A DNA stretch of 64,000 nucleotides, from positions 4,939,001-5,003,000 of the forward strand of contig NC_081811.1 of the NCBI RefSeq assembly GCF_030704535.1, in the 5' to 3' direction. The first letter of the stretch is position 1. Every line of letters starts with the position of its first letter. The notes below the pieces were generated by a model. It worked only from the letters and a program-made list of their open reading frames with translations, had not been told where the DNA came from and searched no databases. The stretch comes from Vitis vinifera. Lineage: Eukaryota > Streptophyta > Magnoliopsida > Vitales > Vitaceae. Below are positions 6,581 to 64,000 of the stretch, in pieces. A program made the position numbers and the translations under genes.

Positions 6581-7474
6581 TTAGGAAGCCGAGAAGCTGT
6601 GATTAACCACTGTAAACCCTCCATCTATGGCCAAATTATGACCACTGATGTAAGCAGACTCATCAGAAGCAAGAAATACAGCAGCCTCTGCGATGTGCCT
6701 GGCCTTCAACACAATGCCTTTCAGGTTGGAGAGCGCTAGAATATTAGCTTCAACTTCACTTGGCTCCAGATTGTATGCTCTACAAGAAAGAGGTGTGGCA
6801 GTTCCAAATGGGGACACGCAGTTGACTCTAATCCCATACGCCCCCAGCTCGCTGCAGGCCGCTCGAACAAGGCCTATGAGAGCATGCTTTGAGGTGGTGT
6901 AAGCGTGCGGGCCGGCTCCCCCAAGTGCGGCTGCGACACTGGTAGTGCATATGATGGATCCTCGGATACTTCTAGCCACCATGGCTCGAGCCGCATGCTT
7001 GATTGTGGCAGCAACTCCGCGGACATTTGTAGCCATGGTGTTGTCAAAGCCCTGGAGGTCTAGTTCTAGAATTCCGGTTAAGGGGCCTATGATTCCGGCA
7101 TTGCTGAACAGAACATCCAGGCTTCCATATTTGTCCAAGGTGTATGCCACTGTCTCCTCCACCTGCTTCTCATCTCTTACATCGCAGTGTCGGTAACTAA
7201 CCTTCTCTGATCCTATCGAGGAAATAACCTGATGGCCTAATTCATCTTGAACATCAGCTACAACAACAAAAGCCCCATTCTCTGCAAATAATCTCACAGC
7301 CTCCTCACCAATCCCACTAGCTGCGCCAGTCACAAGTGCCACCTTACCCTCCAACCTATCAAACCATATTCATCCATAAAACATCTTTGTGAGCAAAAAG
7401 GGAAAGGAAAATACAGAGATGGAAATCAAGAATCAGACATTCAAGTAGAAGAAAACTCACCTTGGCCTAGACAT
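6581..7474 (-). CDS. Short-chain dehydrogenase/reductase (SDR110C-like), tandem copy 1
   Basis: Two exons: 7474-7461 (14 nt, encoding MSRPR up to the split codon) and 7355-6581. Together they give 262 residues. Classical SDR motifs in order: TGAASGIG cofactor loop at 14-21, Asp about 39 at the end of beta-2 (NAD rather than NADP preference), SNAG at 89-92, catalytic Ser about 144, and YTTSK with Tyr157 and Lys161. The C-terminal SGHNLAIDGG is typical of plant relatives of secoisolariciresinol, isopiperitenol and ABA2-type alcohol dehydrogenases, so a cytosolic NAD-dependent oxidation of a secondary alcohol in specialised metabolism is likely. The substrate cannot be read from sequence. The next gene upstream (8436-9526) is a tandem duplicate in the same orientation with the same intron position. 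Without the 14-nt exon the frame would begin at a TTG. Confidence 0.92.
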
Positions 7475-8435
7475 TGTTCTCTTGATGGGTGGCTCAAATC
7501 TTACAATTAGACTCTTGGATCTGGCAGTTTATATTAGGATTGTAGTTTGATAAATTATTAGGTTTGCAATGATGCTGAGCTCGAGAAAATAACAAGTGGA
7601 ACAAACTGTATTAGCTCATTAACAATTTATTAATCCCCTTTCCATCTCTTCAGTTATTGTAGCAATTGGTAATAAAGTAAGAGAGACTAAACACATTCAG
7701 TGCTCCCAGCCATTGCCTTGGTTCAAGTCAACTAATCATAAAAGGCTAAAAAATTAAAAGAAGCTTGCTCTGTTCCTCTGTTCCTCTGCTTCTCTGTTAT
7801 TGAACAACTTTTCTCAGCAAAAGTTTTATATAGTTCTCTGGATTCATTGGCTTATTATTAAAAGCTATTTATTTGTCTACTTTTTATTTCGAATGGATCC
7901 ATGATCACATGATCACTTTAGCATCATTGTCCCCTTGGTCTTGGCCATAGATCGGGTCTTCAGAAAAACAATTCCCTGAAGGGCTTTTTTCCGATCTTTT
8001 TCCTAGGCTACAATGATTGATTAGCACTAATAAGCATGGAAATCTTAAAACCTATGCACCTCCCCTTCCCTCCTTGTGTCACAACAATGCATAGGAAAAG
8101 TATAGTCACCGTCTTTTATGCATCATGTCTGGATCCAATGCTTGTGCAACTTCACTGCTGGGCTCACTCTTTCATGGATTAGTAGGCTTAATAGGCTGCG
8201 GTGCTCGAGTTAGTGACATCTCCTGTGTATCAACAGAGTATTAACCTCGGTTTCAGGTTGTGCCCTGTATTTAATTGTGAAAATGGTACCATATGCAATG
8301 CATCTTGACTTTTCAAAATTGAAAAATTAATGGCCCTGATTTAATTTGATAATCTCAGTGTCTGTAAGATGAATTGCACATGGATCAACAGCATAAAATC
8401 CATGGAGTTCAAATACAGAATTTGTGTTCAACATA
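7475..8435. other. Spacer between the two SDR genes
   Basis: Contains the promoter of SDR copy 1 (a TATA-like 'aatataaac' on the minus strand, about 55 bp before the ATG) and the 3' region of copy 2. A CT-rich stretch lies at 7765-7800. I see no gene or clear mobile element. Confidence 0.5.
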
Positions 8436-9526
8436 TTATTTCCTGAGTCTGGACCTAGTAGTACTTAGAACACTAACCCCTCCATCAACAGCTAAATTAT
8501 GTCCAGTTACATAAGCTGATTCATCTGAAGCAAGAAACAGAGCAGCCTCAGCTACATGTCGTGGCTTCAAAATAATTCCCTTCAACTGTGAGAATGAAGA
8601 AGCTGATGCTTCCACTATACTTGCGTCTACATTGTACATGCCGGTTGACATGCGCGTGGCAACTGCAAAAGGAGAAACACAATTGACCCTGATCCCATAC
8701 TGCCCTAGGTCATCAGCAGCTGATCGGACAAGGCCGAGCACAGCATGCTTGGATGCAGTATATGCCGGAGGCCCAGAGCCCCCCAGTGTTGAAGAGACAC
8801 TCCCTGTGCAAATGATGGAACCGCGTACTTGCTTTTCCACCATTGCTCGAGCCGCATGCTTGATGGTTGATGCGGGTCCTCGAAAATTTGTAGCTATGGT
8901 ATCGTCAAAGCCATCCATGTCCATTTCAAGGATAGAGCCAATGGGGCCTGTAATGGCTGCATTGCTGAACATGATGTCCAGGGTGCCATACTTCTGTATT
9001 GCGTAGGCCACAGTTTCTTCCACTTGCCTTTCATCTCTAACATTGCAATGGAAGTAACTGGATTTCTCTGGGCCAATTGAAGCAACAACCTGATGACCCA
9101 ACTCATCCTGAATGTCTGCAATCACCACAAAAGCTCCATTCTCAGCAAATAACTTTGCAGCGGCCTCACCAATTCCGCTGGCTGCCCCTGTGATTATTGC
9201 AACCTTACCCTCCAACCTGAAAACATAAACAACCAAAAGGTAGAATTAAGAAAATTATCAACAATATATGTATCCAACCACTTCCAATTATGTAGATGCC
9301 GTCCATTTTAAGCCTACATGAGACAGAGCTGGTCATTACAAATGGTATCATAACTATGCTCTCCATGCTTCTGCTATGCCACTCTAATACCATTTTTAAT
9401 GACCGGCTTCATCCCATATAAATATAGTCTACTCTCTGGAATCAAAGCAGAGAATATCTATACTATTAGAAACGGGTTGTTACAACATAGAACTTGAGAC
9501 AGAGATTGCTACCTCGGTTTAGCCAT
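8436..9526 (-). CDS. Short-chain dehydrogenase/reductase (SDR110C-like), tandem copy 2
   Basis: Two exons: 9526-9513 (14 nt, MAKPR plus split codon) and 9216-8436, for 264 residues. It has the TGAASGIG loop at 14-21, acidic Asp at the end of beta-2, catalytic Ser about 144 and YTASK with Tyr157/Lys161. The usual NAG structural motif reads SNAA (89-92), so the glycine is replaced by alanine, unlike copy 1 next door. The C-terminus has SGHN-like 'TGHNLAVDGG' and a basic end, RSRLRK. It is clearly a tandem duplicate of copy 1, with the same orientation, same intron phase and same 14-nt first exon. The two have diverged well beyond allelic difference. It is probably an NAD-dependent alcohol dehydrogenase of specialised metabolism; substrate unknown. 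A TATA-like element (minus-strand 'cttatatt') lies about 75 bp before the ATG. Confidence 0.92.
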
Positions 9527-11625: not shown

Positions 11626-12168
11626 CCTAATATGTTACTTTTTTTCAATCATTGAACCGAAAAAGTTATCGATTCACGGTTTATTGGTCGGACTGGCGGT
11701 CGAATTGCGGTCGAACCGGTGACATCATAAATATATATTTTATTAAAATTAATAAATTAATAAATTCTATCTATCAATAAGCTGGTAACCCAAGCCATTA
11801 TTTGATTTCAAGTTAGGGATTTACCCCAATTAATGATGTCCAGCAGCAAATAACAGAATAATCGAAATGAAAGAATGAAAAAAAGCTTGCCCAGCCGTGA
11901 GGGGGGGGGGGGGGGGGGGTTCACCAGTTGGACCACCAGTTCAAGCGATCCAACCTCGGTTCAATCCAAATCTAGTTCAATTGATCGGACCAGACCAGAA
12001 CCGTGACTGGCCGATGGTTGGATCGAAACTGTGACCGGCCGGTACGGTTTGATTTTTAAAACATTGCTTTTTTTCATTTAGCAAAAGTCAAAATATTTGA
12101 CTTTTTTTCTTTTTCTATTCAATAAAAAATTTATAGTAAGTCATAAAAAAAATATAAAACAAATAACC
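11489..12168. mobile_element. PIF/Harbinger-like MITE with a nested element
   Basis: The left end reads TTA|GGTGGTATTTG followed by T-rich sequence. The right end reads CAAATAACC|TAA. The ends are inverted repeats of each other and are flanked by TTA/TAA, the PIF/Harbinger target. A second element (11648-12066) sits inside it. A better preserved relative lies at 30539-30882. No transposase frame is present. Confidence 0.55.
11648..12066. mobile_element. Nested non-autonomous DNA element (hAT- or MULE-like)
   Basis: Flanked by identical 10-bp direct repeats CTTTTTTTCA (11638-11647 and 12067-12076) inside the Harbinger-like MITE. Its left arm is rich in GGTCGAACCGGTGACATCAT-type words and its right arm in the complementary GGTT/AACC words ('ggaccaccagttcaagcg', 'accggccggtacggtttg'). 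The right end is 'tttttaaaacattg'. A 19-nt G homopolymer (11901-11919) lies within. The same GGTCGAACCGGTGACATCA arm appears inverted at 15920-16020. The superfamily is uncertain: the 10-bp repeat is partly a T-run, so an 8-bp hAT duplication is possible. Confidence 0.5.
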
Positions 12169-14043: not shown

Positions 14044-16344
14044 CGTTCCTTCACCAGAGACACAGAAACACAAACAACCGGAAAAGAGAGACGGTGAGAA
14101 AGGTAGGGTGAGGTGATCTCTTTTTCCTTACTTAGAGGCGAAGTTCAAAAATGAAATCATTTCATTTTAGTTTCACTGGCTTGGGTATTTATTATGTTGT
14201 AATTTCATTAAATACCAAACAGTTAATATGTGTTTGATAATTGAAATTCCAAGTAACTAATCTCATATTTTCATGTTGTGGAAAGTATTAATTTATTATT
14301 TTATTTTATCTTAAATTTACCATGTCTTCCATATACTCTTCTTTTTTTTCTTAGCTGGCATCATATTCCATTGAAGAAATAGACATGTAATGATTTAATA
14401 ATTTAATTTTTATGTTTTAAATAAGAAAAAAATTAAGGTAGTGTTTGGTTGAAAACAATTTTGAATTGTATCAATTTTTTAGAGGATTTTTGAATTAAAT
14501 TTGATGAAATAATCCTAAATTTGTAATAATAATCTCTTCGGTATTTGAACTTTGAAAAGCAAGATATAAATGTCTTTCAACATTTGGATTCTTTTTATAT
14601 AAGTTTTAGAAGAAAATATTACTTTTACTTGTGAAGATGAAGTGTACTTTTATCAAACATAGGTCATTTTGTAAGTTAAAATATATAGAGAATTAAAGTT
14701 GGTTTGGCGCTTGATTTAAAAATAATTTTATGTTTTTTAAAATAGAAAATTGTTTTGAAAACTTTCTAACACTATTTTGATTGCTACTATTTGAGAATAA
14801 TTTTTAAAAACAAAGATAAATAGATAACAATTTTAGAAAATAAGTAAAAATTATTTTCACATGTTTTTAAAAATAAAAAGAAAACATAAAACGATTTGAT
14901 TATGTTTTTTTAAACTTATTTTTATTTTTAAAAATCGATTCATTCAATTGTTGATTGATCGCGAATTACTCTAAATGAACGGTTCAAATTATCCCCTTAT
15001 TTTGTAAACATGAAAGGCGAGCCTTATTTTATTATGACAAAGTCCACACCCACTCCAACCATTTTGTGGGCTAAGGCTTGAGCCCAAGTGATGCATGTGC
15101 CCTCTGTGAGGATGGCTTTTATAGGCATCTTTTCATCCTTATTTCTCTCAGAATTCGATGTGGGATTGCTAACTAATATCAATGAAAAAAATATAACAAA
15201 TCTCCACTAAGAGGGCTTGAACCTTGGACCTCAAGTCTAGTTATCAACCTAGGACACCACTCAGCTATAAAACAAAGAAAATAAGTAAAAATTATTTTCA
15301 CCTATTTTTTAAAGTAAAAAGAAAACATAAACCGATTTGATTATGGGTGGGTATTGGATCGGTCATGAATCACCTAAACCAGTGATCGAATCGGTGACCC
15401 GGTTGAACCAGATAGTTCTAAACGAATCGAACGATTCAAGTTATCCCCTTATTTTGTAAACATGGAAGGGTTCCATTGGGTTTAAGTGTTTTTGGCTAAA
15501 GCCCATGCTGACCTGTCTTATTATGACAAAGCCCACACCCACCCCAAACATTTTGTGGGCTGAGTCTTGAGCTCAGGTGATGCATGTGTCCTCAGGTCCT
15601 GTTATCAACCTAGGACACCACTCTACTACATACATTTTGTCATCAAATATGCCAAACAAAATAATATATATTAAATTTTAAATTTTTTTATAATATTAAA
15701 TAAAAATAATATAATATTTTTAAAAATGATAAAATTAGTTTAAATTTTCATTTTCATTTTTAATATATTCATATTTTATTTAATAAATTTTAAAATATTA
15801 ATATGATTTAATTTGATAATATCAAAGATATAAAATAATATTAATGATTTTTAATTTATTCATATATATTTAAAAAAATTTATAATTATTTTTAATTTTA
15901 ATAATATATAAATTATATATTCATGATGTCACCGGTTCGACCGTGGTTCGACTACCGGTTCAATCAATGAACCGTGAATAGATAATTTTTTCAGTTCCAT
16001 GAGTTCAATTATGAAAATATTGTATTTTATAGTGAATTGGAAGCTTTTAAGAACTTGACACCTGGCCAAATATGTCTCTTCCTTATTTATAAACTACCAT
16101 CTAAGTCGTTATTTGTAAATGTTTACAATAATTCTCTAGAACATTCGACACAAGTTCAAGGACTTCAATCTAACAATGGAGATGTGCAAATGTCTAGGAA
16201 TCATTCTAGAAGCTAGTAAATGTATATAAGCTGCATAATGGGACAATTCAAAATTTCCAAGATTGCATTTTAATTTATTATATGAGTTGCACTTAGGCCC
16301 GCCTCCTACTGTCAGTCTACTTGACCTGTGCCACACATTTCATA
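14044..16344. other. Repeat-rich spacer
   Basis: 14044-14130 is the 5' region of the exonuclease-like gene. The rest is AT-rich and lacks genes. It holds the duplicated segment listed at 14838-15640 and, at 15920-16020, an inverted copy of the GGTCGAACCGGTGACATCA arm seen at 11660-11740. Confidence 0.55.
14838..15640 (+). repeat. Direct duplication of a about 360-440 bp segment
   Basis: Copy 1 (about 14838-15279) and copy 2 (about 15280-15640) share, in the same order, three blocks. The first is 'aaataagtaaaaattatttt' with 'aaaaagaaaacataaa.cgatttgattatg'. The second is 'atccccttattttgtaaaca' with 'ttattatgacaaag', 'ccacaccca' and 'cattttgtgggct'. The third is 'gttatcaacctaggacacca'. Copy 1 also has a 100-bp segment (15110-15230) that copy 2 lacks. 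Both look like pieces of one dispersed non-coding repeat, possibly a TIR element in tandem. Confidence 0.65.
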
Positions 16345-16500
16345 GGACTTTTCTTAATAGTGCAGTAATTTAAAAAAGTTATTCTTAAATTACTGTAGTG
16401 GAAGAAGTTATTACAAATATAGGGTAGTTTTTGCCACATAAGAGAGGAAAGAGGAGAGAGGGTGAGAGAGGAGATAGGAGAGAGGAGAGAGGGTGAACGG
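16345..16500 (+). repeat. Left terminal inverted repeat of the foldback element
   Basis: Begins GGACTTTTCT, then 'agtaatttaaaaaagttatt', 'gaagaagttattacaaatat', 'ggtagtttttgccacata' and a GA-rich tract. The right end, reverse-complemented, repeats the same blocks in order with few differences and one small gap. Confidence 0.85.
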
Positions 16501-17516
16501 TAAAATTTTTTAAAAAAGCGAACTCGTCTCTTGAAGAGACGAGTTCCATGAAAGATAATTATTCAAGGAAACTCGTCTCTTCAAGAGACGAGTTCCCATT
16601 AAAAAAAATATATATATATTTTTAAAAAATTCACAAATTAAAAAAAATAAAATAAAATTTGGAACTAAAGGGAACTCGTCTGAAGAGACGAGTTCCCATG
16701 GGAAAAAAAATCCCAAAAAAAAAAAAAAAATCCTAAAGGAACTCGTCTCTTGAAGAGACGAGTTCCCATGTAAAAAAAAAAATATTTTTTTAAATATATA
16801 TTAAAAAAAATAAAAATAAAAAAATAAAAAAAACAATTCCTCAAAATTCCTAAAGGGAACTCGTCTCTTATAAAAAAAAATAAAATAAAATTCAAGAGAC
16901 GAGTTCCCTTTACGAAAAAAATATTTTTTTAAAAAAATATATTTTTTATTTTAAAAAATCCCAAATTAAAAAAAAAAAAAAAAAAACAATTCCAAAGGGA
17001 ACTCGTCTCTTGAAGAGACGAGTTCCCATGTAAAATTTTTTTTTTTTAAATATATATTAAAAAAAAAAAAAAAAAACAATTCCTCAAAATTCCTAAAGGG
17101 AACTCGTCTCTTCAAGAGACGAGTTCCCATGTAAAAAATATATATATATATATATATATATAAAAAAATTTCAAGAGACGAGTTCAAAAAAAATATTTTT
17201 TATTTTAAAAAATACCAAATTAATAAAAAAAAAAAAAAAAAAAAAAAAAAAACACAATTCCAAAGGGAACTCGTCTCTTGAAGAGACGAGTTCCCATGTA
17301 AAAAAAAAATATTTTTTTAAATATATATTAAAAAAAAAAAAAAAAAACAATTCCTCAAAATTCCTAAAGGAAACTCGTCTCTTCAAAAGACGAGTTCCCA
17401 TGTAAAAAAAAATATATATATATAAACTCAATATATATATATATAAAATATTTTTCAAGAGACGAGTTCAAAAAAAATATTTTTTTAAAAAAATATATTT
17501 TTTATTTTAAAAAATC

Positions 17517-17549
<33 letters not shown>

Positions 17550-17957
17550 CACAATTCCAAAGGGAACGCGTCTCTTGAAGAGATGAGTTCCCATGTAAAA
17601 AAAAAAATTTTTTTTTAAATATATATATTAAAAAAAAAAAAAAAAAACAATTCCTCAAAATTCCTAAAGTGAAGAGACGAATTCCCTTTAGGAATTTTGA
17701 GGAATTGTTTTTTTTTTTTTTTTTTAATATATATATTTAAAAAAATATTTTTTTTTTTACATGGGAACTCGTCTCTTCAAGAGACGAGTTCCCTTTGAAA
17801 TTGTGTGTTTTTTTTTTTTTTTTTTTAATTTGGGATTTTTTAAAATATAAAATATATTTTTAAAAAAAAATATTTTTTTTACATGGGAATTCGTCTCTTG
17901 AAGAGACGAGTTCTGAATTTTGAGGAATTGTTTTTTTTTTTTTAATATATATATATT

Positions 17958-17959
<2 letters not shown>

Positions 17960-18015
<56 letters not shown>
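17960..18015. repeat. (TA)n microsatellite
   Basis: An almost uninterrupted run of about 28 TA units inside the foldback element. Likely length-variable. Confidence 0.9.
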
Positions 18016-18017
<2 letters not shown>

Positions 18018-18625
18018 TACATGGGAACTCGTCTCTTTGGAATTGTGTGTTTTTTTTTTTTTTTTTTTTTTAATTTGAGATTTTTTAAAATAAAAAATAT
18101 ATTTTTTTCCTAAAGGAACTCGTCTCTTCAAGAGACAAGTTCCCTTGAGTAAACTCTTTTTTACATGGAACTTGGGAACTCGTCTGTTGAAGAGACGAGT
18201 TCCTCTAGGAATTTTGAGGAATTGTTTTTTATTTTATTTTATTTTATATTTTAATATATATATTTTAAAAAAATATATTTTTTTTACATGAGAACTCGTC
18301 TCTTGAAGAGACGAGTTCCCTTTGGAATTGTGTGTAAGAGACGAGTTCCCTTTGGAATTGTGTGTGTGTGAGTGTTTTTTTTTTTTTTTTTTTTAAATAA
18401 AAAATATATTTTTTAAAAAAATTATTTTTTTTCCTAAAGGGAACTCTGATTTTATTTTTTATTTTTTTTTACATGGGAACTCGTCTCTTCAAGAGACGAG
18501 TTCCCTTTAGGAATTTTGAGGAATTGTTTTTTTTTTTTTTTAATATATATATTTAAAAAAAAGTATATTTTTTTTGCATGGGAACTCGTCTCTTGAAGAG
18601 ACGAGTTCGCTTTTTTTAAAAATTT

Positions 18626-18751
18626 TATTCCTTCACCCTCTCTCCTCTCTCCTCTCTCCTATGTGGCAAAAACTACCATATATTTGTAATAACTTCTTTC
18701 ACTACATTAATTTAAGAATAACTTTTTTAAATTACTACTTGAGAAAAGTCC
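18626..18751 (-). repeat. Right terminal inverted repeat of the foldback element
   Basis: Reverse complement of the left repeat: 'cttcaccctctctcctctct', 'tatgtggcaaaaactacc', 'atatttgtaataacttcttt', 'aataacttttttaaattact', ending 'agaaaagtcc'. Confidence 0.85.
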
Positions 18752-18761
18752 GGACACATCC

Positions 18762-18800
<39 letters not shown>

Positions 18801-19319: not shown

Positions 19320-22300
19320 ATGGACGATAGCTGTGCCGTTTGCGCCGAGACTCTCGAATGGGTTTCGTACGGACCATGTGGCCATCGCGATGTGTGCTCG
19401 ACTTGCGTGGCTCGTCTTCGCTTCATCTGCGACGATCGCCGTTGCTGCATCTGCAAAACCGAGTGCAACGTTGTCTTTGTCACGAAGGTTCCGGTCTTTC
19501 TTTTACCTTTTGACACTTGTTGAATCTGTAATTGTTTGATTCTTGATTGAGTATACCGTTTGGTTGCTGAGAAATTAGGGGAAATGAAGCTGTCGGGTTA
19601 ACTAGTCAATTATTTGGTTGAGTTGAGTTAAAATTATGGTTTTATTCTTTTTGTAAATGAATTAAAAACAGTAATTAATTGGAAAAATTTAGATTTCATT
19701 GTCATTTTTTTTCTCTTTCCCTCCGTTTTCTATGGGCAAAACAGGCTAAGGTTGATAAATAGAAAAAACTTGTGAGAGTAAGTTAAAGTTGCATTCCCTT
19801 GGGATAAAGTATTTGATAAATGGAACCTAGTTGCATTTAGTTTGTTAATTTGTATTCTGTTCAATTTGAGCAATACACATGGGTCTATTGGTGTTGCTAT
19901 TGTTTAAGGTTGAACTTCAAGACTTTAAGTTTACGATCCTTACTTTCTGCACTTTATCAAATTATATGAAGTTGGTTCTCACGAGTTCCGAGAGTTTTCT
20001 TTCCTGTTCTGCTTAGTTGAGTGTTTATGATTCTTTTAGGTATATTTGTTGGATTTGTGATTGTTGAATTCACACAAAATATTCAATTTAAATGTGATTT
20101 GATTTTTCAATAATAAGAACATAAATGGGGATACTTTGGCATTCAGTGTTGCTGATCTGAAATATGCAACTAGAAAGAGGGATTGGTAGATATGAATGTT
20201 TAGCATTCAGTTCTGATTTTTATTTTGATTTCTACAATTGTGCAGGCCTTAGGAGATTATACAAGAATGGTTAATGATTTTTCAATCCTGCCAACCGAAT
20301 CAAGGGAGGGTCAAGTGGGAATGTATTGGTATCATGAGGACACACAAGCATTTTTTGATGATGTGGACCACTACAAGATGATCAAGGCAATGTGCAGGCT
20401 TTCTTGCAGCGTATGTGACCAGATGGAGGAGCAATCAAATGATGGCTCAAAGAGAAGGCAAAAGTTTAGGAATATTGACCAGTTGAAGGGTCATTTATTC
20501 CATCGGCATAAATTGTTCATGTGCAGTTTGTGTTTGGAAGGAAGAAAAGTGAGTTCCATATCTGTGACATCTTATATGATATTTACCCTCTGTCTATCTG
20601 TGTATACACACAATTCAGATGTCATTCTTCTGTTGTCCTCCAAATTTGTTCTTATGAATTCGTCTTTAGCTGTGCTTTTCTTTAAAGTAGGCGTTTAATA
20701 TAGAATGCATTCTTTTTGAAAAAGAACACAAGTAACTCTAAATATTAATAAATTCCATGTTTGATTTGTGGATTCATTAGTCTCCTAGCAAAAAGGAAAT
20801 CTATCCTTGATCCAACAACCCTAAACCTTACTTTTCATATATAAATGCCTTCTGACCATGTCAAAATCTGTTTAATCTGCAGCTAAGCCCACTTAAGTAC
20901 CTTCATTGCTTCATGAAGCAAAAGTAAATAAGGATCAAATATCCTCAAAAGACAAAAGCAACAATAAAAGAAAGTACTGCAAGAACATCCAAACAGCCCA
21001 ACCACTAGCCACAAAGTCAATTATCCCCTTGACCACTGATATCTCTGAACTCTCTTATCAAGTCTGACCTTTTCCCTGTGATCAGTTCATTAGTGGCTCT
21101 TTTATCTTCTGGTAGACTTTCTTTCTAGTTAAACAGAAGTAATGCATTTTTTGGAATATAAAAAGAACAAATTGACATAGTGTTGGTGTCTATAATGTTT
21201 TCCTGAGTGTCACAAATGAAGTTTATTTGTCTCTTAGGTGGTTGGTATTGTTCAGCCAAAATACTATAGTGTTCTGCTTTATTTGCTTTATATGCCCCAC
21301 CATTGGATGAGAGCTGCATGTTTGTTATTCTATTGCATAAATGATTCTAATGTGCGATGAAATGAGGGATTGGTAGAAAGAGGAGAATAGTGAGGGGAAT
21401 GTAGCATACGATGAGATAGGTTCTATGGCTGAAATTAATGCTGGCTCTCTGGAAATCTGGTTTTGACATCTTTTTCACGGTTATAGATGACTCAGCTGGA
21501 ATGATTTGCTTTGGTGGTTTAAGTAGAATCAAGTCTTGCAGAAGCCACCCTACAGATCTGTCAGTAAGTTACAAGATGAAAGGGAAAATCACTGTGTGCT
21601 GTGGTGTGAAAAAAAACTTTTGGCAGAATGTTCTTCAAATGCACTTTCAGTTTCAATGCTATGGCATTATATCACTAGAATGGAACTGCAGAATGCAGAG
21701 TTCGCTAAACACGAACAATTCATTGGGGCTGACTTTGGGTCTGAATTGTTTTGATTCTAATAATTTGGTGCAGACATCCTGATATGATATGGAAGTTGGG
21801 ATGGGGCTCTGTTTGTTGCTGTAGGTTTTAATAATTTCTTCTTCCTTTTGTTTGTATGTTGATTTCACTAGCTTTGCATGAATTAGATATTTGTGCATGA
21901 TTAAAGCCTATTGACCTGTGGTTCTTTTTTCTTTTTTTGATCAGTCATCTCACTGGCTTTTCTTGGAATGTAACAGGTATTTATTTGTGAACAAAAGCTC
22001 TACAATAGAGCACAGTTGAATCAGCATATAAACACAGGTGACTCTGAGGTGGATGGAAATGAGGCTGAAAGAGGTGGCTTCATGGGGCATCCGATGTGTG
22101 ACTTCTGTAGAAGCCCATTTTATGGAGATAATGAGCTGTACTCGCATATGTCCACGGAACATTATACCTGTCATATATGCCAAAGGTATTACATGCCATC
22201 TGTCAATAATAGAATGATATACAATGATTTCAGTTCAAGGCATGTTTACCTTACATAGTTCTTTGGTGCTATTCAATGCAGGCAGAACCCTGGACAATTT

Positions 22301-24649
22301 GAATACTATAAAAATTATGATGACCTAGAGGTAAGTTACAATGACCACTCCTTTTCTTTAATGTTTCCAAGTTCAAATGTATATGTATAAAACTCTTTTG
22401 TTTGTTACAGATCCATTTCCGGAGAGACCATTTCTTATGTGAGGACGAAGCCTGCCTTGCAAAAAAGTTTGTCGTCTTTCAATCTGAAGCAGAAATGAAG
22501 GTGATTTCTTAGAGCATAGATGGCCGCCTTTCATTATATGCTTGAGCATTTATTTATTTGTTTTTGTTGATTTTCTTTGGAGGATTATTTTGAATCTTGC
22601 ACTGTTTGGGGATAAGTGTTGTGGAAGCTATGTTGCTTTAGATTGACTTTTCCTGCATCCTGAATTTCTTCTATTCATTGGGTGTTTTTCTTGTTATTCC
22701 AGAGGCATAATGCTATAGAACATGGAGGACGTATGTCTCGCTCTAAACGTAATGCTGCTCTTCAGGCATGTATTATTTTTCTAATTCTGAGATCATCTTT
22801 AGAGGATCCAATTTGTTATAAAAGATTTTTGTCCACATTATCCTGCCTCTTGATTTGCAATTCTAGATACTCGCTCTACGTTGTTCATTTCTCTTGCATT
22901 CAGATCTCATATGTTAATTCTCTCTTTCTCTCTCCAACTTCATGTTGGGGGATGTTGTAAACATAACAATCTGGTGCTCCCTCTTCTCCCTTTTTATTGC
23001 AGATACCAACAAGTTTTCGCTATCGAAGAAGTACTGAACAAGATCAACGCCGTGGAAGAGGAAGGACATTTAATCGTGATTCCTCTGCTGATCAACTCTC
23101 CTTGGCCATTCAAGCTAGTTTGGAGACAGCTAATGCAAATGACACATATCATGATCCACCCCCATCATCATCATCCAGCACTCAGGCAGTTTCTGATCAT
23201 TATGATAGCGATCCCATAATTCAGCCATTTGAATCGTTGGCTATGACAGATTCTGAATCTTCTTCGAGATATCGTCAAGCCTTGGGTCATAACCCAATGA
23301 ATGTACCTCTTGTGGAGTCTTTCTTTCCTCCTCTCGCCACGGCACCCAGCAGCAGTCTACCAAAACCCAAACTTGACTCAGAAGGTTTGCCGAAAAATAC
23401 CATGGCTGCACGTCTCCGCCGTCAAGGTAAGGCAAATGTTCTCCATTCAGGTCAGGGTTGGCCAGCCCCAAATCGTGGATCAGTCCCACTATCAAGTAGT
23501 TCAACTCAATCTAAGGTTGCAAATATTGCACCTGTGCCATCATCTAGTCTGGATCAGGTTAAGTCAGCAACTGGTAGTGGATCTGCTCCAAACAGCTATG
23601 CTAGTTTTGCTCAGGCTCGACCCACAACAGTGCATGGATTTGCATCATCTGGTTCTTCAAGTAACTCAGGCAGCATAAGTAGGATCAGCCACTCTGCATC
23701 AGCCCCAAATCTTGCTGATAGCAGATCTTTTGATCCTTCTATGTCTGATTTTCCTCCAGTTTCTGCGACACAAAAGCAAAAGTTGCCAACAATTACCCAG
23801 CCCGTGCTGAATGCAGAAGCTGTTCACACTGCAAACAAGTCTCTGGTGGAAAAGATCCGTGCTGCTCTTGAATTTGATGAAGACAAATACACCGCTTTTA
23901 AAGACATATCCGGGCAGTATCGGCAAGGTTCAATTGACACCGCAGTATATCTGGCTTATGTTCAGCAGTTTGGTTTGTCACATCTTGTTCTTGAATTGGC
24001 TAGACTCTGTCCTGATGCTCAGAAGCAGAAAGAACTTTTAGAGACCTATAATGCTAGTGTACGGAGCAGTGGTTTACAAGAAAATGGTTGGGGGCATAGC
24101 AATGTCCATTTTAAAGACAAAAAGATCTCCAAGAAAGGTAAAGGAAAACCTGTAGTTGTGGAGGACAGTAATGTGAAGGATACATTAGCAGATAACATCA
24201 TTAACACAGTTAGGAACCTTCGGTCCACCTTCAAGCCTTCAGAAGAAGAGGTGGAGGTGTTGTCAAAGGATGGGTACCGTGGTGCAAAAGGCAAATCAAA
24301 GGGAGTGATTGATGAGCAACAGTCAGATCTGAGTTCTGCTAGAGAACCCTTACCAAAGCTGAGTGCCCAAAATGAGGTGCCATCAGCGGGTGGTGGATCT
24401 AATCAAAATTTAGGGGCTGTGAGTGGAGGAAGTCAGCGACGAAAGAAAGCATCAAAATTCCTCAGAGCCCGTCTGGGTGATGGTTCAGTGGGTGCACTTC
24501 TGAACTCCCAAGATCCTGACCCAGATCCAGATCCAGTGGAGGAAACATTAGATGCAAACATGAATCCGGCTGAAGGCTTACCAGTTCATGGTGTTTGGCG
24601 GAATGGTGGTGGTCAGAGACTTTTTAGCAATGGCCAGAAGAGATTCTAA
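19320..24649 (+). CDS. E3 ubiquitin ligase of the HEL2/ZNF598 type (ribosome collision sensor)
   Basis: Seven coding exons: 19320-19487, 20246-20548, 21977-22185, 22282-22330, 22411-22500, 22703-22765, 23003-24649; 2529 nt, 842 residues. The N-terminal RING is C3HC4-like: Cys5, Cys8, Cys20, His22, Cys26, Cys29, Cys42, Cys45. A chain of Cys/His fingers follows (for example C110-x2-C113...H139...H144, CSLC at 149-152, and CDFC and CHIC in exon 3), up to about residue 280. Next comes a Ser-rich disordered region with a FFPPL motif and then a conserved C-terminal block (KIRAALEFDEDKYTAFKDIS). The protein ends in SNGQKRF. This order matches yeast Hel2 and human ZNF598, which ubiquitinate small-subunit proteins of collided ribosomes to start quality control. 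Role and cytosolic, polysome-bound location are inferred from the family. Intron 6 (22766-23002) begins with GC instead of GT. Intron 2 is 1.4 kb. Confidence 0.93.
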
Positions 24650-49289: not shown

Positions 49290-49790
49290 ACCTCAGTCGC
49301 TATCAACTCTCCTAAAAGCAATTGTTGTTAGAAAAGGCGCATACCCTAATCTTATACTACATTCATCAAAGCGCCCACGGCGAACACAATAGGAGTTGAT
49401 GGACTCGACCAACCTTCCGATCTGCCAACAATCTCTCCAAACCCCCCCCCTCCAGCGACACCCCTGGGGTAGCATTCATCCAAGCGCCCACGGCGAACAC
49501 AAGGGGAGTTAATGGACTCGACCAACCCTCCGATCTACCAACAATCTCTCCCCTCCACCCCCAGCGACACCCTTGGGGTAGGAAAGACGCATACCCTAAC
49601 CTTATACTGTATTCATCCAAGCGCCCACGGCGAACACAAGAGGAGTTGATGGACGCGACCAACCCTCCGATCTGCTAACAATTTCCCCCCAAACGATACC
49701 CCTGAGGTTCGAACCCGTAATCTCGACTCTGATACCACTTATAGGATGTCAAGCACTACCAACTCTCCTAAAAGCAACGCTGAGGTCTTA
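49290..49790 (-). mobile_element. TRIM-like LTR element (fossil) with internal tandem repeats
   Basis: Both ends carry 'aactctcctaaaagcaa' blocks: left 'cgctatcaactctcctaaaa', right 'cactaccaactctcctaaaa'. On the minus strand the right copy is followed by TGGTATCAGAGTC (about 49727-49739), a tRNA-Met-type primer site. This orients the element. Between the ends lie three tandem units (next entry). No protein-coding internal region; about 0.5 kb in total. Confidence 0.6.
49361..49680. repeat. Three tandem units of about 105-140 bp
   Basis: Units begin at about 49361, 49474 and 49611 with 'attcatc.aagcgcccacgg' and share 'gagtt.atggac.cgaccaac' and 'ccgatct.c.aacaat'. Units 2 and 3 differ by a 'gcataccctaaccttatact' piece present before units 1 and 3. 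They form the interior of the TRIM-like element. Confidence 0.8.
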
Positions 49791-60499: not shown

Positions 60500-60507
<8 letters not shown>

Positions 60508-62184
60508 CATTTTGGAGAGCTATCCTCTTTTCTTCTCTTTGGAGAGCACTCCCGACAAACACACACACACACTTCACTTTGAACTGAATTTTGGGAGGCA
60601 AGGGAAGAGCTCATTGATCCCTCATTCTCGAACCATCACGCACCCGGAAAGCAGCTTATTGGATATCAGAGGAGAAGAAATGGCTTCCCATGGCATGAAC
60701 CAAGGTAACCGGATGAATTTTTGCTCTTAAATGCATGCTTAAATGTTACCATGTGATCCTATGCTATTTCAATTCTCTTCAAATGGTATCAGAGCAAGCA
60801 TGGTTGACATTTGAGCTGCAATTTTGGGTTAATTTTTTATTTCTCGTTTTCTGGTTATGGAAGACATTTTTTGGGGTTTTTTTTTCGTTTGGTGTTAATT
60901 CTTGGTTTTCAAGCCCGATTGAGGTTGGAGACTTGTAGAGAATATTGTTTGGAGCAAAACCCATCAATTTTTGTGATTTTTGGAGCTCATTTGATGATAT
61001 TTCAAAAATTAGGGCTTGTTTGGTTCTTGCTATTATGTGTTTTTTGTGCATTTTTTTGGGTTTGGATTGAAGGATTGATGTTTGAGGATGGAAATCTATG
61101 TATTTTTGTCGAAAAATGCACAAAATTTTGGGCGAATTTTTTTTTTTTTTTTTCTTCTCCAGAACCAGGCCGTGTTCAGTTGGAAGAGAATATGAACAGT
61201 ACCATGCTGACGTCATCATGACGTCATTAAAAAAAAACAAAATTTTCCCATAGAACAGTACCATACTAAAATTTTTTTTATGATGTCAGCATGGTACTGT
61301 TCATCTTCTCTTAGTTCTAGAGAAGAAAAAAAAAATTCGCCCAAAATTTTGCGCATTTTTCGAAAAAAATACATAGATTTCTATCCTCAAACATCAATCC
61401 TTCAATCCAAACTCAAAAAAATGCACAAAAACGCATAATAGCAAGAACCAAACGAACCCTAATTTTCGAAATATCATCAAATGAGCTCCAAAAATCACAA
61501 AAATTGATGGGTTTTGCTCCAAACAATATTCTCTACAAGTCTCCAACCTCAATCGGGCTTAAAAACCAAGAATTAACACCAAACGAAAAAAAAAAACCCC
61601 AAAAAATGTCTTCCATAACCAGAAAACGAGAAATAAAAAATTAACCCAAAATTGCAGCTCAAATGTCAACCATGCTTGCTCTGATACCAATTGAAGAGAA
61701 TTGAAATAGCATAGGATCACATGTTAACATTTAAGCATGCATTTAAGAGCAAAAATTCATCCGGTTACCTTGGTTCATGTCATGGGAAGCCATTTCTTCT
61801 CCTCTGATATCCAATAAGCTGCTTTCCAGGTGCATGATGGTCCGAGAATGAGGGATCAATGAGCTCTTCCCTTGCCTCCCAAAATTTAGTCCAAAGTGAA
61901 GTGTGTGTGTGTGTTTGCCGGGAGTGCTCTCCAAAGAGAAGAAAAGAGGATAGCTCTCCAAAATGTACACACACACTTCACTTTGGACTGAATTTTGGGA
62001 GGCAAGAGAAGAACTCATTGATCCCTCATTCTCAAACCATCACGCACCAGAAAGTAGCTTATTGGATATCAGAGGAGAAGAAATGGCTTCCCATGGCATG
62101 AACCAAGGTAACCGGATGAATTTTTGCTATTAAGTGCATGCTTAAATGTTAACATGTGATCCTATGCTATTTGAATTCTCTTCA
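60500..62184. mobile_element. Rearranged LTR element: three LTR copies and an inverted interior (fossil)
   Basis: LTR 1 (60500-60781, plus sense) is followed two bases on by TGGTATCAGAGC (60784-60795), the tRNA-Met primer site, and about 440 bp of internal leader. At about 61236 the sequence turns round: the same leader runs back in reverse to a reversed primer site (61678-61689) and LTR 2 (61692-61973, minus sense). A third, 5'-incomplete LTR (about 61970-62184, plus sense) joins LTR 2 at a CACACA tract. No gag or pol region is present, so it is a LARD/TRIM-style or deleted element. LTR copies remain very similar, so the event is fairly recent. It interrupts an exon of the ABC transporter relic. 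Confidence 0.8.
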
Positions 62185-64000
62185 ATCTATTCAAAGCTTG
62201 CTTGGCTCGAGAATGGCTTCTTATGAAGCAGAACTCATTCATCCATGTATTCAAATCAGGGCAGGTGATGGATGGTTGAGACAACTAGTTCATGGATTGT
62301 GTTATTATCCTGATTGCGTAAGAAATCAATAAATGTTTTTACACACATGGATGTTTCTCTCTTGCCTCTTGCAGCTTGTAGTCATTGCTCTAGTGACAAT
62401 GACAGTGTTTAAACGCACACAGATGACTGTTGATATGGTTCACTCAAATTACTACATGGGCTCACTGTTTTATTCTGCCATTAGACTTATGACCAACGGA
62501 TTAGCAGAGCTGCCATTGACTGGTTCCAGACTTCCAATCCTTTACAAGCAAAGAGATCTATACTTCTATCCAGCATGGAGTTATACTGTTCCAGCTGCAA
62601 TTCTAAAGATTCCATTTTCATTCCTAGATGCTGTTCTTTGGACAGCTCTCACCTATTATGCTATTAGTTACAGTCCTGAACCAGAAAGGTGACGTCTCCA
62701 GGTGAAACTATTGCAGTTACATGAAAGAAAATCGATTTTTTCCCTCTCTTAGTCCTACTGTTTATCTATGCTATCAGGTTTTTCCACCAACTCCTCATTC
62801 TTTTTCTTCTTCATCATGTATCAGTTTCGCAAGCCCATTTTATTGCTTCTGTTGTACGAGATCCATCTGCTGCAGTATCTTTCAATGTCTCTACTTTGCT
62901 AGTAATGTATCTATTTGGAGGTTTCATAATTTCGAACGTAAGGCCATTCCTCATTTCAATCAACACTTCCTAAAGATAAATAACTCCATTACTGCTCACC
63001 AGAAAAACTTTCTTCATTGCAGCCTCTTTACCTGCCTGGTTGGAGTGGGGATTTTGGATTTCTCCTCTAACATATACACAAATAGGTGCTTCACTAAATG
63101 AATTCCATGCTCCAAGGTGGGAAAAGGTGAATCCTAAACTGATTATTTTGTTGATTGAATGGTGGTACGAATTAAAAATATTCCTTTCCTTGCTGTCAGT
63201 GCCCAACAGTTGATTCTCCCTTGCAGGTTTCATCTTCAAATGCTACTATGGGGCAACAATTTCTAAGAAGCCATGGTCTAAATTTTAGTGACTACTTTTA
63301 ATGGATACCAGCAGGGGTACTACTCGGGTTTTGGATAGTTTTCAACATCGGGTTTACATTTGCTCTTAGGTTTGTCACTCCCATTAACATTGGAAAAACT
63401 GAAAAACAAAATCAATTAAAAAATTGATTCTTAAAGTACTAACCTTATCTTTTGGGAAATCAAACCTGTTCAGCTCCAGGGAGGTCTCAGACTACCATTT
63501 CTCACCAAAGGGTATCTAAGCTGAAAGGAGAAGATTCAACGAATATGACTCATGGACAAGAATTGCCTCATGTTGGTACTTCCAATGATGTTTCAGAAAG
63601 AAAAAAGAAGGGTGAGAGCTAATCATATGCAGTATGGACTGTTGATACTTGATGCATACTATTTGCTTACATGAATAACAAGTAGCATAGACCATTGCAT
63701 TGTCACCACAAAATGCATACAAAAACATAAAAAAATTAAAAAAAAACAAATTGGTCTTACGAATTTGAACTCTTTTTAGGTACTGAAATATTAGTACTGA
63801 CTTAATCATACAGGGATCGTTTTACCGTTTGAGCCCATAGCAATATCCTTTGAGAATGTGCAAGACTATGTTGACACTCCAAAGGTAGCCTCATTATCCA
63901 TTGAATCCGTATTTTCCTAGGCTGCTGGACAATTTTAAGTTGGTCGAATTTCTTCCATACATCTCCCAGAAACTGAGAGAGCAAGGTTTTGCACAAAAAA

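Follow-up and report, generated by a model that had tools for sequence, protein, structure and literature searches.

A palindrome-bearing foldback element near a ZNF598-like gene in grapevine belongs to a dispersed, probably Mutator-like family with large transposase-encoding members

The locus and its surroundings

The window, i.e. the whole stretch of 64,000 nucleotides of Vitis vinifera DNA that was analysed (C7:4939001-5003000), harbors a foldback element of 2,407 bp at positions 16345-18751, the inverted repeats of which span it from end to end. Outside the element lies a ZNF598/Hel2-like gene on the plus strand (19320-24649), with a PAH_ZNF598 domain in the ORF at 22997-24649 and, by eye, a possible first exon at 19320. 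The element is separated from the possible start codon of this gene by 568 bp, so effects on the ZNF598-like gene are conceivable. Copies of a dispersed inverted repeat (81%) are found beside the element at 15888-16002 and 11649-11765, in a region rich in ACCGGTTC-like words. Further away, two adjacent short-chain dehydrogenase ORFs on the minus strand (6581-9236) share 72% DNA identity, and a GC-rich tandem repeat with units of 113-137 bp occupies positions 49360-49713. A search of the element and its surroundings against Rfam returned 23 hits, every one below the gathering score. The palindrome and terminal repeat patterns of the element gave no match in viral and prokaryotic sequence collections, where little was expected.

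Structure of the element

The left terminal inverted repeat (TIR) has an outer domain at 16345-16465 (plus strand) that starts with GGACTTTTC, a terminus which recurs in 21 other complete copies, and that pairs with the outer domain of the right TIR at 18633-18751 (minus strand), ending in GAAAAGTCC. The two TIRs differ at 5 of 91 aligned bases. The left TIR also contains a GA-rich subterminal domain of AGAGAGG repeats with a period of 7 (16441-16492, plus strand), of which a shorter counterpart is present in the right TIR. Since the terminal domain that is free of array sequence reaches to 16520 on the left and to 18608 on the right, the terminal repeats of 125-155 bp proposed in a first-pass annotation of this DNA agree with the alignment. 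Long TIRs, here an outer domain of ca. 120 bp plus arrays, are as expected for Mutator-like elements (MULEs).

Between the terminal domains, the left array (16521-17677, plus strand) consists of head-to-tail A/T-rich monomers carrying a 25-bp palindrome with the typical polarity AAAGGG-palindrome-CCCATG, and the right array (17678-18607, minus strand) shows mostly the reverse (CATGGG-palindrome-CCCTTT). The flanks are atypical in some monomers, namely at the outer array ends and at 18117 and 18177. The arrays meet in a near-perfect, unstranded inverted repeat at 17524-17831 (arms of 150 nt, 95%, with 8 nt between) with its axis near 17678. The array is thus made of directly repeated, palindrome-bearing monomers inside each of two inverted repeats, mostly of one polarity per half. 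When the left half is aligned with the reverse complement of the right half, 912 columns are identical, 53 are mismatched and 477 contain gaps. The score is 656, whereas the direct orientation scores 252 and none of 20 shuffles exceeds 237. The two halves are indeed mirror images, as had been noticed earlier, with many insertions and deletions between them. TIRs with internal tandem repeats that cover most of the element and leave little or no loop are characteristic of foldback elements.

The palindrome arm AACTCGTCTCTT or its complement was found 42 times in the window with at most 2 mismatches (shuffle control: mean 4.6, maximum 12). Within 16521-18607 there are 38 arms, 31 exact and 7 with one mismatch, and the 4 matches elsewhere each have 2 mismatches. 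Two arms with a 1-base centre form 15 complete 25-bp palindromes, with perfect pairing (12 of 12 positions) in 10. The 8 leftover arms belong to a damaged palindrome (16683), to one opened by a 24-bp gap (16858/16894) and to five solo arms. The earlier figure of about 20 copies of the inverted unit was therefore a fair count, but only 15 palindromes are complete. The GC content is 41% in the arms as compared to 17% in the array spacers. Equally palindromic 25-mers (at most 1 unpaired position) are rare outside the element, with only six in the window, and just one of these six has a GC content of 30% or more, compared to 14 of 14 inside. A derivation of the arm from the TIR was considered and dropped: the best match has 3 mismatches, which was equalled by 426 of 2,000 permuted arms. 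The longest ORF of the element that starts with ATG encodes 76 amino acids of low complexity, or 124 if TTG starts are allowed.

A dispersed family with target-site duplications

The 495.6 Mb of the genome in 21 contigs were searched with a 34-base TIR motif (at most 3 mismatches) and with the palindrome (at most 1 mismatch). The element is multicopy, not single-copy: the TIR motif gave 261 matches (135 + 126) and the palindrome was found at 1,832 places, whereas the reversed patterns gave 0 in both cases. With two ends per element, the 261 matches would correspond to about 130 elements. The 40 TIR hits with the best scores, out of 388 candidates, correspond to 32 places other than the window element, and the copies fetched from these places, which are thus the best-scoring ones, all contain palindromes (32 of 32).

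Ends and duplications were counted in 22 complete elements, i.e. 21 of the 32 fetched copies and the window copy. Ten copies (L016, L018, L021, L024, L026, L027, L031, L032, L034 and L036) were left out, having one end outside the stretch, being truncated or not being among the positions listed, and L039 was left out as its left flank lies beyond the fetched stretch. The complete elements are 2,090 to 3,584 bp long (median 2,637 bp) and carry 5 to 24 palindromes each. These dispersed copies differ in array length, which is another foldback property. MITEs are short (below about 600 bp) high-copy elements, and the median length of the 22 elements places the family outside that class. Seven of the 22 have identical 92-bp TIR ends, because of which we consider movement probably recent.

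Exact target-site duplications flank 19 of the 22 elements, 10 bp in 17 cases and 9 bp in 2; as a control, left flanks were combined with the right flanks of other elements, and not one of these 462 mispaired sets showed a duplication. The first-pass annotation had anticipated duplications of 9-11 bp among the copies, and this holds for the family, which also conforms to MULEs (about 8-11 bp, typically 9), the window copy not exactly. The three elements that have no 9-10 bp duplication are L015, L030 (6 bp only) and the window copy. Near-identical ACACAT-CATA words had been reported to flank the latter; they are present but weak by themselves. The left flank word ACACATTTCATA (16333-16344, plus strand), at the position where duplications sit in other copies, and its partner GGACACATCCATA (18752-18764, plus strand), offset by ca. 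2 bases, are probably a decayed target-site duplication. An equally good ungapped match, which is not significant, occurred in 293 of at most 1,000 random flank pairs and an equally good gapped match, which is of modest significance, in 23 of at most 4,000, both totals being upper bounds as positions skipped near the element were not subtracted. A TA repeat, starting at 18762, flanks the window copy on a single side.

Large relatives encoding a transposase

Three convergent TIR pairs more than 10 kb apart, on contigs C9, C10 and C13, were found among 100 listed of the 261 motif matches. The C9 member is about 21 kb long, with its left TIR at 1843074 and its right TIR near 1864060, and includes an ORF of 856 amino acids with DBD_Tnp_Mut, MULE, SWIM and Transposase_mut domains. 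A MURA-type transposase, as in MULEs, is thus present in a larger family member with the same TIRs. The C9 member further contains minus-strand ORFs opposite to the transposase gene (L064:4595-7171), two of which carry the plant mobile domain PF10536, and the two gene groups are separated by a palindrome array. Its 76 palindromes are distributed over the left TIR (17), the region between the genes (9) and the right side (50); where polarity could be called, the palindromes of the left TIR agree with those between the genes, whereas those on the right have the opposite polarity. The right end lacks the last ca. 10 bases and no target duplication was found for this member. The pair on C13 spans 21.9 kb and contains 55 palindromes within the first 10 kb as well as a second copy of the transposase; its flanks share a 6-base match only, CTATAC. 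The C10 pair encloses a long open polyprotein frame (C10:8378000-8387500, L065), which by eye we take to be Ty3/gypsy-like and which seems to have inserted into a foldback element.

A genome search with the 856-residue protein gave at least 58 matches (53 of 1,191 candidates scored). Five of these have 98-100% identity, i.e. C9:1847661 (the query's own locus), C13:7421098, C7:150030, C9:1146425 and C3:204132. Two of the five copies have no internal stop and three have one. For all five loci a listed TIR motif is present at a distance of 2.9-8.9 kb, and by simple arithmetic (261 motifs in 495.6 Mb) the chance of a motif within 10 kb of a random place is ca. 1%. The remaining 53 of the 58 matches (at most 96% identity) have no listed TIR place within 12 kb, the list for this comparison comprising 100 of the 261 motif matches and 39 further places. 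A genome search with the Pfam MULE domain, in which 150 of 791 candidates were scored so that counts are lower bounds, led to eight MULE loci that were checked for the family TIR (L050-L053 as fetched stretches and L046-L049 as short cut-outs); the TIR is absent from these eight. Several loci of equal score form a separate MULE group with an open frame of 829 amino acids, one of them ca. 6 kb before the start of the window. L050 is the one locus of this group that was checked, and the family TIR is not present there.

Comparison with known elements

The family resembles MuDR-type MULEs in its long TIRs, its duplications of 9-10 bp and the MuDR DNA-binding/MULE/SWIM transposase of its large members. 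It differs in that most duplications are 10 bp, not the usual 9, that the TIRs consist largely of palindrome-bearing monomers and that the C9 member adds opposite-strand ORFs with a plant mobile domain.

Composite TIRs with tandem units mark foldback elements, most of which are said to be Mutator elements in the accessible part of one paper (PMC4079207). As far as the available portions of two papers describe them, Tetris of Drosophila, Tm1, FARE of Arabidopsis and Galileo likewise have a terminal domain followed by tandem monomers in each TIR (PMC3169594, PMC4079207). According to the same excerpts, the Mutator element Tm1 of the root-knot nematode is similar in further respects: it contains a GA-rich motif, encodes a MULE transposase and has duplications that are mostly 9 bp long (PMC3169594, PMC4079207). 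Compared with these four elements, to the extent that the excerpts cover them, the grapevine family stands out by the palindrome of 25-31 bp in most of its monomers. For palindromes within foldback or Mutator TIRs, the sections available in the mainly non-subscription literature searched yielded a single line, which mentions palindromes inside the long TIRs of Mcmar (PMC3169594). The TIR and spacer strings do not occur in the text of the literature searched, and a search of the same literature for arrays of palindromes in MULEs returned no paper.

Among plant elements, the multiple-TIR MULEs of tomato, Arabidopsis, rice and maize are similar in having amplified TIRs; there it is whole TIRs that are duplicated (PMC3310237), whereas short monomers are amplified here. 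MuTAnT elements of Medicago are foldback MULEs with hairpin-forming TIRs too, but they are mostly 200-300 bp long and target TA microsatellites (PMC4486113), and the flank pairs of our 22 elements are not TA repeats. For grapevine, 18 Mutavine MULE families are listed in the accessible part of a survey, including Mutavine-1 of 17.7 kb and Mutavine-18 of 16.2 kb with TIRs of 230-263 bp (PMC2528002). These are similar to the family in comprising large MuDR-like elements and differ, as far as this part of the survey goes, in duplications that are always 9 nt where found, a distinction drawn from the published description. The words foldback and palindrom are absent from the main text of the survey (PMC2528002). 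The family could be one of the 18 Mutavine families and may already be catalogued. What distinguishes it from the foldback elements in the literature covered is the palindrome in most monomers. The first-pass annotation was right both in its observation of the palindrome array and in assigning the element to a Mutator-type or foldback group with an amplified palindromic unit, as borne out by the multicopy family, the duplications of 9-10 bp and the MuDR-type relatives.

Proposed mode of mobilisation

Judged from the genome sequence, the element is very probably a non-autonomous foldback MULE that is moved in trans by the transposase of larger relatives. Like non-autonomous DNA transposons in general, the small elements lack the genes of the autonomous members and keep their ends. 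Each TIR comprises a terminal domain of ca. 120 bp, a GA-rich domain and then an array of A/T-rich monomers of roughly 100 bp. Most monomers hold a palindrome of 25-31 bp, the polarity being largely uniform within a TIR, and the two TIRs meet with almost no loop between them. The enzyme that recognises the ends and moves the small element is most likely a MuDR-type transposase of the members of ca. 21-22 kb, whose TIRs are the same, and insertion would leave a target duplication of 9-10 bp. This role of the large members is suggested by the shared ends and by the probably recent movement. Array length would shift by tandem duplication or deletion of monomers and higher-order blocks, growth by tandem duplication being deduced from the repeat structure. 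Against this reading, there is no clean duplication in the window copy, L015, L030 (6 bp) or the C9 member, and the C13 member has only 6 bases. As the family now has a probable enzyme, trans-mobilisation of foldback MULEs becomes directly testable.

Variation of the palindromes

The 609 palindromes in 37 stretches have a G or C at the centre in 600 cases (304 G, 296 C, 5 A and 4 T). Their arms carry 196 changes, or 1.3% per base, of which 90 are C-to-T or G-to-A; this would fit methylated cytosines. The relation of the centre to its flanks was studied in 597 palindromes (full flanks, tighter cut), of which 265 could be oriented.

In the unoriented set of 597, there are 148 monomers whose nearest neighbour is identical over the 60-base flanks. 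In these the centre nevertheless differs in 29 (20%), 23 being G-C swaps, at an arm divergence of 0.9% per base. Discordance climbs to about 40% as flanks diverge, so the linkage between centre and flanks is weak but not nil. In the oriented set of 265, centre discordance was 0.35 at identical 60-base flanks (59 monomers) and between 0.33 and 0.45 where the flanks were not identical. The same test applied to common variable sites of the flanks gave mostly 0 to 0.09, and 0.19 for one site. Similarly, a flank site could be predicted from the opposite flank with an error of 0.01 to 0.21 (11 sites), compared to 0.37 and 0.43 for the centre predicted from either flank. The left and right flanks remain linked across the palindrome.

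Inversion of a 25-bp palindrome leaves a G-C swap at the centre and unchanged arms, and flipping in place would explain this pattern simply. Such inversion of the 25-bp unit via a hairpin or cruciform is suggested by these comparisons and we consider it a real possibility, with a likelihood that falls somewhat short of even. Gene conversion over tracts shorter than a monomer could also produce the swaps, and the monomer-oriented centres (165 C to 94 G) depart from the 1:1 ratio expected for free flipping. The counts are to be read with the shared ancestry of the monomers in mind, by which they are not independent, and they rest on assembly bases with possible base errors. If flipping is true, the ca. 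1,800 copies would be a natural record of palindrome inversion in a plant genome, and a comparison of accessions could give the inversion rate. The centre base of near-identical palindromes may then report inversion, so that instability could be measured in a plant without engineering. Two other comparisons were abandoned: a spacer motif as yardstick of conservation, which mixes two monomer types (24-mer with 4.4% pairwise difference in the window and 22% mismatch in fetched stretches at a loose cut), and a comparison of centres between two 1,724-bp repeats of C9, which are out of register (64% ungapped identity).

As to a function, the palindromes might be kept as paired binding sites for the transposase or a host protein, with arrays that raise recognition of the ends. 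In the 22 elements the arms diverge from the majority at 1.5% of bases, compared to 3.3% for the outer TIR, and arrays also occur in the transposase-bearing C9 and C13 members. In the accessible parts of the respective papers, it is suggested that the duplication of TIRs improves their recognition by the transposase (PMC3310237), and the internal repeats of Galileo are said to hold extra binding sites (PMC4079207). However, part of the TIR value stems from a few columns that are split between subfamilies, and the arm rate is biased down by finding arms through similarity; homogenisation of the arrays would equally give a low arm divergence. Selection on arm pairing had at first been expected, but compensating double changes between paired arms are at chance in the 609 palindromes (2 seen, 1.1 expected), which gives no sign of such selection. 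On balance, a binding-site role seems rather unlikely from the sequences compared.

Predicted RNA fold

The minimum free energy calculated for an RNA of the full element is -1162 kcal/mol, as compared to -426 +/- 12 kcal/mol for 15 shuffles. In this fold none of the 15 palindromes is self-closed and duplex runs of 121 and 89 pairs are formed. If pairing is limited to a span of 60 nt, the energy is -570 kcal/mol and all 15 palindromes close with 9-11 pairs each. A transcript is therefore predicted to form a single long hairpin in preference to a series of small hairpins. Hairpins nested at two scales had been proposed for the element; both scales can fold, but they compete in the RNA (0 of 15 versus 15 of 15 palindromes closed).

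A long inverted repeat ca. 0.6 kb upstream of a gene is a plausible source of silencing. Read-through transcripts might form the 2.4-kb hairpin and be diced to siRNAs that silence the family, in line with the predicted energy and the long duplex runs. There is a precedent in maize Mu killer, which is a rearranged MuDR that contains an inverted duplication and for which action by hairpin RNA was proposed, although the new model in that paper, in the part that is accessible, invokes antisense RNAs incapable of forming large hairpins (PMC3440606). As the window element has no transposase ORF, its siRNAs could only act on TIR and array sequence, which also weighs against this scenario, and we consider it unlikely. 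Among the papers listed for the arm string, one has it in a table of plant small RNAs, in Brassica bra-miRn20 with a roughly complementary partner (PMC3936892); at 12-13 bases this was provisionally treated as a chance match.

Improbable readings (artefact, local expansion) and another inverted repeat

An assembly artefact is very improbable. Palindromic A/T-rich arrays are hard to assemble, and errors in array length or at single bases are conceivable; however, copies that have different flanks and exact duplications are spread over many contigs, and a copied read would not give TIRs that differ at 5 of 91 bases, as those of the window copy do. Least credible of all is a cruciform-driven, locus-specific palindrome or satellite expansion that is not a transposon: the array is satellite-like, of low complexity and mirror-symmetric and the duplication of the window copy is poor, but this reading was dropped once dispersed genome copies appeared and is refuted by the 261 TIR matches with their common termini, the exact 9-10 bp duplications in 19 of 22 elements and the transposase-bearing members.

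A second large inverted repeat is found at 60500-62186 of the window. Its arms (60500-61146 and 61326-61973) are 96.6% identical, with a small hairpin-like insert between them by eye, and a third, partial copy follows in direct orientation at 61967-62185. After one of these repeats stands TGGTATCAGAGC, which resembles an initiator-tRNA primer site, and the structure may be the remnant of an LTR retrotransposon arranged head to head.
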